A program made the position numbers and the translations under genes. A stretch of DNA of 64,000 nucleotides, taken from positions 930,001 to 994,000 of the forward strand of contig NZ_CP126161.1 in the NCBI RefSeq assembly GCF_030127105.1, written 5' to 3'. Source of the DNA: Haloarcula pelagica. GTDB lineage: Archaea; Halobacteriota; Halobacteria; Halobacteriales; Haloarculaceae. The notes under the pieces were generated by a model. That model had not been told where the DNA came from. It searched no databases and worked only from the letters and a program-made list of their open reading frames with translations. Shown here in pieces: positions 52,848 to 54,115 of this stretch. Position 1 is the first letter of the stretch. Every line of letters starts with the position of its first letter.

Positions 52848-53189
52848 ATGGCAGACGAAGACGGTCCCGTGGACCCCAGCGAGTTCGGGGACCAGGACGG
52901 TCCCCCGATCGAGGACAAGCCGTACAAGATCATCTTCGAGGCAAACAAGTGCTTCGGCGCGGGCAAGTGCGCGGAGGTCTCGGAGACGTGGTCGCTGGAT
53001 CTGGATACCGGCATCGCCAGGCCCGAGACCTACTACATCGACGAGGCCGACCTCGACCACAACGTCGCCGCCGCGGAGGTCTGTCCGGCCAAGAAAGACC
53101 GCGGCGTGATCCACGTCGTCGACCGCCGGACGAACGAGGAGATCGCCCCCGACCCCAACGGCGACGGGACGCTCTCGGTCGACTGGTAA
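52848..53189 (+). CDS. ferredoxin with three cluster cysteines
   Basis: The 113-residue ferredoxin has CFGAGKC (Cys35, Cys41) and EVCP (Cys79), an arrangement that gives three cysteine ligands, as in [3Fe-4S] ferredoxins. It carries an acidic N-terminal extension, which is common in halophiles. Residues before and after the cluster, AEVSETWSLDLDTGIARPET and GVIHVVDRRTNEEIAPDPNG, are typical of a conserved haloarchaeal subfamily. It probably carries electrons to a P450 or other redox partner not located here. Confidence 0.88.
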   Translation: MADEDGPVDPSEFGDQDGPPIEDKPYKIIFEANKCFGAGKCAEVSETWSLDLDTGIARPETYYIDEADLDHNVAAAEVCPAKKDRGVIHVVDRRTNEEIAPDPNGDGTLSVDW

Positions 53190-53229
53190 CCGAAACCCGT
53201 TTTCCCGAGGGGCGTAGAGAGGGGACTGG

Positions 53230-53314
53230 GCGAGGGTAGCCGAGCTTGGCCAAAGGCGGTGGGCTTAAGACCCGCTCCCGTAGGGGTCCATGGGTTCGAA
53301 TCCCATCCCTCGCA
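53230..53314 (+). tRNA. tRNA-Leu(UAA)
   Basis: The 85-nt cloverleaf has acceptor GCGAGGG / CCCTCGC, anticodon loop CTTAAGA (53274-53280) with anticodon TAA (53276-53278), a long variable arm of the Leu class and T-arm GGGTTCGAATCCC. The discriminator A is encoded but no CCA, and there is no intron. The 3' 23 bp recur downstream as palindromic copies. Confidence 0.95.
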
Positions 53315-53356
53315 TTTTCCGACTCGAACGGACGTGAGAGTCGTGAAAATCTAACC

Positions 53357-53426
53357 GATGGGATTCGAAGTACGGAAACGCGAGCGAAGCGAGCGTTTGC
53401 ATCGGGTTCGAATCCCATCCCTCGCA
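53357..53426. repeat. tRNA-Leu 3'-end palindromic unit A
   Basis: GATGGGATTCGAA (53357-53369) is the exact inverse of TTCGAATCCCATC (53407-53419), so the unit folds into a long hairpin. An inner stem AAACGC/GCGTTT (53376-53381 / 53393-53398) encloses GAGCGAAGCGA. The last 23 bp (53404-53426) are identical to the 3' end of the tRNA-Leu gene. Confidence 0.65.
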
Positions 53427-53466
53427 TGAGTGCGCGGCGCGGTTCCGCGCCGCGCCGAATCGTCTG

Positions 53467-53537
53467 GATGGCGATTCGAACTACGGCAGACCGAACGCAG
53501 TGAGGTCTGGCATCGAGTGAGAATCCCATCCCTCGCA
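53467..53537. repeat. tRNA-Leu 3'-end palindromic unit B
   Basis: This copy is more degenerate: GATGGCGATTCGAA (53467-53480) opens it, CAGACC/GGTCTG (53487-53492 / 53504-53509) forms the inner stem, and the last 17 bp (53521-53537) are identical to the tRNA end. It is followed by an AT-rich island. Confidence 0.55.
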
Positions 53538-53590
53538 TTTTGCGGCGAACAGATCGTGAGCCGCAACTACAGTTGTTTGGGATAGTCCGG

Positions 53591-53797
53591 TCACGTTGTG
53601 TTGCTACCGAATGCTCTGTCCAAAATTGGAGTGATGATTACAAACCCGAGGAAGATTGTGATTACGTACGAGATGGAATTGAGGGCAATCGTAAGCGGAT
53701 CAGCAATACCGTCGATAGAGATGTTGTAAAGCGTGAAGATCACCGCAGCGACCACGGCGTTTGGGAGGTGAGCGGAGATTAATTCTCGTAATTCCAT
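53591..53797 (-). CDS. small AT-rich two-helix membrane protein
   Basis: The 68-residue protein has two hydrophobic segments (LPNAVVAAVIFTLYNI and SISYVITIFLGFVIITPIL), lies within an AT-rich island and uses AT-rich codons (Ile, Asn) unlike its neighbours. ATG 53797 is preferred because a TATA-like AAATATTT (53823-53830) lies 26-30 nt upstream; ATG 53806 or TTG 53824 are alternatives. It looks like horizontally acquired DNA. I recognise no family. Confidence 0.5.
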   Translation of the reverse strand: MELRELISAHLPNAVVAAVIFTLYNISIDGIADPLTIALNSISYVITIFLGFVIITPILDRAFGSNTT

Positions 53798-53904
53798 GTA
53801 AAACATTGCCCACCGTTGTTTCAAATATTTGTCAGTTAGAGCTAAATCGGCAAACAGATGTGAGGGGAACTCGATACACTCTTAGCTTTTATTTTATGTT
53901 TTAT

Positions 53905-53923
53905 ATAGTACTATTAGTACTAT
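53905..53923. promoter_or_regulatory. ATAGTACT-ATT-AGTACTAT palindrome near a TATA-like run
   Basis: A perfect 8-bp inverted repeat with a 3-bp spacer follows TTTTATAT (53899-53906). The layout resembles an operator over a promoter in the AT-rich island, but no clear gene lies to the right, and the minus-strand small gene lies 100 bp to the left. Confidence 0.35.
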
Positions 53924-53991
53924 CCGGGTGCTGTATTGGTCCTCTGTATCTCGCACACCAGTTCTATCGGGTCTGGAGGGAGTCAACAGGG

Positions 53992-54003
53992 CCCATCCCT
54001 CGC
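53992..54003. repeat. truncated tRNA-Leu 3' end (island boundary)
   Basis: CCCATCCCTCGC matches the last bases of the tRNA-Leu gene. It marks the right edge of the AT-rich insert and the start of unit C, whose sequence (CTTCCGACCCGAACAG) resembles the DNA right after the tRNA. Confidence 0.45.
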
Positions 54004-54043
54004 GTCTTCCGACCCGAACAGATGAGAGGCGTGAAGATCCACC

Positions 54044-54115
54044 CGATGTCGATTCGAGACACGAGAGACCCGACGCAGTGAGGTCTGGCATCGGGTTCGA
54101 GCCCCATCCCTCACA
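54044..54115. repeat. tRNA-Leu 3'-end palindromic unit C
   Basis: GATGTCGATTCGA (about 54045-54057), an inner AGACC/GGTCT stem (54066-54070 / 54082-54086) and a final segment GGGTTCGAGCCCCATCCC (54093-54110), in all 20 of 23 bp matching the tRNA end, form a third hairpin unit. Confidence 0.55.

Follow-up and report, generated by a model that had tools for sequence, protein, structure and literature searches.

Hairpin-bearing units with copies of tRNA 3' ends, candidate micro-elements behind the tRNA genes of Halobacteria

The array behind tRNA-Leu(UAA)

The window, a 64,000-nucleotide stretch of DNA, is part of a 4.46-Mb haloarchaeal genome (G000:C1:930001-994000). It carries a tRNA-Leu(UAA) gene, 3' of which lies an array of four units of ~111 bp each (53315–54115; Table 1). 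The original prediction placed tRNA-derived direct and inverted repeats here, held that the tRNA sequence itself forms the arms of the palindromes, and took the whole for more than a single att duplication. All of this is borne out: the array is multi-unit, with hairpins, and inverted T-arms are found in units A, B and D. The predicted layout, on the other hand, needs correction. Three units had been counted, with an AT-rich island between units B and C; a fourth is recognised by its match to the units at L206 and L207, and the island interrupts this unit rather than separating two others.

Table 1. Features of the tRNA-Leu(UAA) array (window coordinates)
Feature	Position	Strand	Basis or remark
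tRNA-Leu(UAA)	53230-53314	+	ARAGORN
T54–N73 block of tRNA-Leu(UAA), the duplicated part	53295-53314	+	limits read from 109 copies
Unit A, 112 bp (full; its four parts are listed below)	53315-53426	+	covariance model R1, E 2.1e-17
Unit A, hairpin 1	53315-53349	+	fold
Unit A, inverted T-arm GATGGGATTCGAA	53357-53369	+	13/13 complementary to 53407-53419
Unit A, inner hairpin	53376-53398	+	fold; apical motif GAGCGAAGCGAG at 53382-53393
Unit A, direct T54–N73 copy	53407-53426	+	20/20 identical
Unit B, 111 bp (full)	53427-53537	+	R1, E 2.4e-11
Unit B, inverted arm	53467-53480		
Unit B, apical motif	53493-53504		
Unit B, direct copy	53518-53537		TTCG changed to TGAG
Third unit, interrupted	53538-54004	+	resembles intact third-type units of L206 and L207
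Third unit, hairpin 1	53538-53572		hairpin 1 and degenerate left arm together ~53538-53590
AT-rich insert inside third unit	about 53575-53965		splits unit matching L206/L207
77-aa hydrophobic ORF in insert	53591-53824	-	relative at G084:C1:72985 (75% DNA identity)
Third unit, right remnant GGTCTGGAGGGAGTCAACAGGGCCCATCCCTCGCG	53970-54004		aligns with right end GGCATCGAGTGAGAATCCCATCCCTCG of L206/L207 units
Unit D (unit C of the original prediction)	54005-54115	+	R1, E 3.1e-9
Unit D, inverted arm	54045-54058		
Unit D, direct copy	54096-54115		17/20 identical

The hairpin-1 region of unit D is like that of unit A, while hairpin 1 of unit B is unlike it; that of the third unit (TTTTGCGGCGAACAGATCGTGAGCCGCAA, from 53538) resembles the intact third-type units of the congeners L206 and L207. 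When the last 23 nt of tRNA-Leu are compared with the direct copies, 23 of 23 positions agree in unit A, 20 of 23 in unit B and 20 of 23 in unit D. The predicted count of 17 for unit B is the length of the longest exact run. Folded as single strands, units A and B are better than all of their shuffled counterparts (z -3.5 and z -4.1), whereas the degenerate unit D is not (z -0.7).

Within the AT-rich insert, the right ~50 bp recurs in the family genomes G268, G238 and G258 and looks like a transposon end; the 77-aa ORF has no Pfam match. We rejected the idea that the insert is an integron-like gene cassette: it interrupts a unit, and its transposon-end-like stretch is common to other genomes.

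Read antisense, the tRNA and its units form long spurious ORFs (window 52930-53538 and 53351-53566, both on the minus strand; MRGMGFEPDANARFARVSVLRIPSVRF...). Spurious peptides of this kind may carry hypothetical-protein annotation beside haloarchaeal tRNAs.

Limits and folding of the unit

Each unit consists, in order, of (i) hairpin 1, (ii) an inverted copy of the T-loop and 3' T-stem (11 nt), (iii) an inner hairpin with the apical motif GARCGNAGYGAG, and (iv) a direct copy of T54–N73. The period is near-constant, with a median of 111 bp.

The limits of the direct copy were read from 109 copies. Each position from T54 to N73 agrees with the copy's own tRNA in 91–100% of cases; these copies were chosen on block positions 1–18 and not on 19–20, such that the sharp edges are a result and the inner identity is not. 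Right of N73 agreement falls to about chance, and leftward only G52–G53 agree, two positions common to nearly all tRNAs. The inverted arm (116 units) matches its own tRNA from T54 to about position 64 and then drops to chance. Its match is tRNA-specific at R57 (0.91 versus 0.52 with random tRNAs) and over the final four arm positions, which belong to the 3' T-stem. Arms were chosen by a 7-of-10 match to their own tRNA, which slightly favours the first ten positions; position 11, outside the selection, scores 0.48 versus 0.25. Even odd arms fit their own tRNA: tRNA-His units carry GAGAGAATTGAA-like arms for TTCAATTCTCGC, and an Arg-GCG unit carries the arm CGGAGATTTGAG for TTCAAATCTCCG. A variant in which TTCR becomes TGAG recurs in units at Leu, Val and Arg tRNAs. 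Judged by its bases, the Leu form can still build a helix with its partner arm GAACTAC, by way of a tandem G–A step.

Forty unit cores were placed in one alignment (A1). With the named structure, 88.7% of its cells pair, falling to 49% or less when the structure is slid by 1–3 columns, and 108 cells show double changes versus 50 in shuffles. The inner stem is 96.6% paired and draws on several pair types; its loop is mostly GNA, closed by a near-fixed C–G pair. GNA triloops with C–G closure are very stable in DNA. G–T pairs are rare (17 of 680 paired cells). Of 116 units, 79 have the apical motif on the strand of the tRNA and none has it on the opposite strand.

As to the wider sequence context, inverted repeats at both unit ends, by which MITEs are recognised, were not found: the arm is internal, mostly 47 nt before the direct copy. 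The apical motif was also considered as a genome-wide repeat and rejected as such. It occurs in 70 exact copies, of which tRNA flanks account for about 17, versus 39 copies of the reversed control; outside units it is at about background level.

Spread, placement and turnover

The original prediction proposed a search beside other tRNA genes, where the unit does recur, each time with the 3' end of the tRNA concerned. A DNA search located a second site in the window's genome, behind tRNA-Arg(UCG) and with that tRNA's own 3' end. Units lie 3' of many further tRNAs in this genome; several are degenerate, and there are subtypes with unlike inner hairpins. On a strict count, 11 of 38 tRNA genes in the window's genome are followed by a copy of their own 3' end, as are 15 of 37 genes in G294 and 22 of 38 genes in G296. 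In the same flanks of these three congeners the ends of other tRNAs appear in 15/690, 11/632 and 15/670 cases (about 2%). Own-tRNA copies are therefore more than 10 times as frequent as those of other tRNAs, which excludes chance as the source of the repeats.

Beyond the genus, the pattern GCATCGGGTTCRAATCCC matches 77 stretches in the genome contig collection. About half are halobacterial, nearly all of which show a unit ~100 bp behind a tRNA; no unit was seen at the bacterial and non-halobacterial archaeal stretches. The covariance model R1 detects units in 244 of 292 Halobacteria genomes (65 of 77 genera), while in a phylum-wide sample of 295 genomes 33 match, all in the window's own order. 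Every one of the 49 R1 hits inspected lies directly behind a tRNA gene or a tRNA 3' part, on the tRNA's strand, and none contains cargo. Placement is not built into this result, since R1 contains no more of the tRNA than its T-arm part. Among the strong loci, 26 of 29 stand directly behind a same-strand tRNA called by ARAGORN, two of the others lie behind tRNA-Glu 3' parts and one behind an interrupted tRNA-Arg; weak hits (E about 1e-6 to 1e-8) lie behind a tRNA in 20 of 20 cases. The tRNA-Arg at L166, which ARAGORN misses and whose anticodon region contains an intron-like insertion, has a unit behind it. A viral or plasmid origin was rejected, the unit core having no match in 50,697 phage and 72,556 plasmid records; viral contigs held no unit. 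A search of Rfam 15 with L001, L002, L105, L117 and L119 returned only tRNA above the gathering threshold. The unit family is absent from the literature searched, outside which subscription papers mostly lay, and looks undescribed.

In haloarchaea, tRNA genes with units have one to four of them. The original prediction proposed a look at tRNA-Leu in related genomes; the unit occurs there, and its number varies: orthologous tRNA-Leu(UAA) loci within the genus hold 0, 1, 2 or 3 units. One downstream flank follows no unit in L211, two in L213 (86% over 280 bp) and one in L209; a second follows one unit in L215 and two in L216 (90% over 270 bp); a third follows three units in L207 and one in L208. 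The unit in L215 is the same as in L091, a record named Halomicroarcula. The prediction had also named two observations that would speak against it, namely an array of fixed length across relatives with no empty site, and copies produced by local tandem duplication with no inverted arm. Given the 0–3 units at this locus and the arms matched to their own tRNA, neither describes what is found, and the units may fairly be called hairpin-based elements tied to tRNA ends. Orthologues with an altered T-stem (GCGCG...CGCGT; L214, L219, L227, L231 and L233) all lack units, as if the target sequence mattered.

Of 31 tRNAs compared between three congeners, 6 have units in every genome, 12 have none in any, and 13 have them in some genomes only. 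Occupancy correlates positively between congeners (r 0.40–0.54), which fits inheritance or selection as well as it fits target preference. Tandem units are identical in L053 and L165, and these show local duplication. Gly and Leu units from different genomes are 89% alike over 84 bp by BLAST but less so by global alignment, apparently since another unit of the same locus was used there; we give the BLAST likeness moderate weight.

Comparison of occupied and empty sites in relatives gives boundaries that are partly blurred by hairpin-1 remnants, and several empty flanks start inside such remnants. Gly-GCC and Lys-CTT were dropped as precise empty sites, their aligned flanks being in part hairpin 1 from an additional or decayed unit. 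Among the empty-site alignments, the cleanest single one belongs to a different object, not an inverted-arm unit: a 229-bp insert at the end of tRNA-Leu(CAA) in G294 (L258), without an inverted arm and with homology reaching further into the T-stem. It is absent from the window's genome, where the flank is clean (81% over 394 bp).

Larger elements use the same tRNA genes. In the window's genome, a 20.7-kb island with a PF00589 integrase lies beside tRNA-Thr(GGU) and ends in a long partial tRNA-Thr, with two units immediately after it; behind tRNA-Ala(GGC), a 33-kb stretch finishes in a 13-bp copy, after which comes a unit. With the islands sitting between tRNA and units, the units have stayed with the chromosomal 3' end and been displaced, and were not brought in by the islands. 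Behind a tRNA-Arg unit of the same genome lies a DUF5615 and DUF433 gene pair (L002:1797-2396), in ~1 kb that runs from this unit to an additional, 14-bp copy of the end of tRNA-Arg; the stretch is probably a small integrated element in its own right. In a congener, ~18 tRNA genes are packed into 5 kb of a secondary contig (G294:C3:237543-242356), a density seen in some viruses or plasmids.

Candidate mechanism, alternatives and known systems

We propose that the units are non-coding micro-elements specific to tRNA ends, which come and go by site-specific recombination in the T-loop through a recombinase supplied in trans, and we give this explanation about an even chance of being right. Such elements, ~110 bp long, would live solely at the 3' ends of tRNA genes. 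The right end of each would be a folding site made up of the 11-nt arm, the inner hairpin with its conserved apical motif and the T54–N73 copy; crossover would occur inside the T-loop, with TTCRAAT as the crossover region, and the tRNA would stay intact through the identical T54–N73 that the unit supplies. Since the units code for nothing, the enzyme would have to act in trans, and would most likely be a tyrosine recombinase. It would recognise the shape of the hairpin, which might be presented as folded single-stranded DNA. Further turnover would come from tandem duplication and from deletions between the 20-bp direct repeats.

We infer that the units are mobile. A T54–N73 block with variable flanks, a strict location, intact tRNAs and turnover together fit site-specific recombination in the T-loop, and the rare G–T pairs, the triloops and the strand-asymmetric motif (79 to 0) suggest that folded single-stranded DNA is recognised. 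A circle of ~110 bp would be unusually small for double-stranded recombination, which counts against the proposal, as do the missing phage and plasmid matches, the correlated occupancy of congeners and the blurred empty sites. Crossover in the T-loop of a tRNA is a known type of target, used by mycobacteriophage Ms6 (PMC1762012). More speculatively, the units may be a new class of hairpin element that reaches its target by base pairing: the 11-nt arm would serve as a guide of single-stranded DNA for the T-loop and 3' T-stem of one particular tRNA gene, a shared recombinase would insert or remove units at different tRNA ends, and changes in the arm would retarget the unit; we think this unlikely. 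Alternatively, templated repair that evens out imperfect palindromes could produce the covariation of arm and tRNA, with no function or selection behind it.

Conserved folding might instead mark a structured RNA of the tRNA 3' trailer, acting in termination, in 3' processing or as a small RNA, with an arm that keeps the duplicated T-arm from disturbing the fold of the tRNA proper. Covariation is strong, hairpin-1-like sequence also occurs 3' of some tRNAs that lack units, and the units always stand behind a tRNA, on its strand and with the apical motif never reversed, although a fixed orientation is also expected from site-specific insertion. We nonetheless hold this reading improbable: a trailer RNA sits poorly with a copy number that ranges from 0 to 3 between orthologous loci and with 13 of 31 tRNAs being occupied in only some congeners, a role in termination or processing gives no reason for the T54–N73 copy, the scarcity of G–T pairs is more DNA-like, and Rfam offers no match. 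Quite unlikely, in our judgement, is that the units are scars of ordinary tRNA-integrating islands or viruses, left by repeated integration and loss and then duplicated locally. Islands do use the same tRNA genes in the window's genome, and partial tRNAs are reported beside full copies in Haloferax gibbonsii (PMC7921747); yet a shared two-hairpin core, a median period of 111 bp and tRNA-matched arms at many isotypes across the class are not expected of scars, and the longer partial tRNA end of the Thr island, between tRNA and units, implies a different att block.

The ends of IS200/IS605 elements are ordered as guide, hairpin and cleavage site. The units resemble them in this order and in arm–target pairing, and a HUH-type element of the IS200/IS605 or REP kind, its arm serving as guide for a cleavage site TTCRAAT by the hairpin, would account for the match between each arm and its own tRNA. 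We nevertheless consider such elements a poor candidate, and a Y1 transposase unlikely as the mover: G296, with the most occupied tRNAs (22 of 38), has no match to the Y1 transposase family PF01797, which is absent from 8 of the 13 genomes searched, and the units duplicate 20 bp, whereas IS200/IS605 insertion is not known to make a target duplication. Hardly credible is a host that maintains the units as decoys to draw integrases off the tRNA gene. The units do supply additional copies of the 3' sequence on which integrases act, but both islands were found integrated at the tRNA and not at a unit copy.

If our proposal of T-loop micro-elements is right, a large fraction of the tRNA genes of haloarchaea bear micro-elements that are undescribed and noted at most as tRNA remnants; the units would be among the smallest site-specific elements known and would add a layer to the tRNA gene as an integration site. 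Culturable Haloarcula and its relatives would then be a tractable system for studying how the sequence of a non-coding palindrome is brought into agreement with its target tRNA. The annotators of the H. gibbonsii genome noted partial tRNAs directly beside full ones (PMC7921747), and these remnants are probably some of the same objects; the consulted passages of that account do not describe the unit structure, the inverted arm, the class-wide spread or the turnover.

Among known systems, the tRNA-integrating islands and proviruses (pNOB8, SNJ2 and related tyrosine integrases) likewise target the 3' part of a tRNA, duplicate its 3' end and keep the chromosomal flank. Of the classical marks of tRNA-integrated elements, the units have the direct repeat of the tRNA 3' end flanking the insert but, at ~110 bp and non-coding, no integrase encoded within it; they also differ in being often tandem and in having hairpins and a tRNA-matched inverted arm. 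The reported attP sites of pleolipoviruses, unlike the units, lie inside a coding sequence (PMC7911831).

In size, palindrome layout and a crossover-like box, the units are similar to integron attC and other folded att sites. An attC site is an imperfect palindrome with a paired outer arm, an unpaired internal loop, a variable inner hairpin and a conserved box. The arms of the units, by contrast, are tRNA sequence, cassettes are absent from the 49 loci inspected, and the integron R-box (RYYYAAC / GTTRRRY) does not appear in A1, where the units have TTYGAAC / GTTCRAA. IS200/IS605 ends and REPs share with the units the character of non-coding hairpin repeats with guide-like pairing by a hairpin, and the PATEs of Haloquadratum are also non-coding hairpin repeats (PMC3119063). 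What distinguishes the units from all three is the duplicated block of 20 bp and the strict location at tRNA genes.
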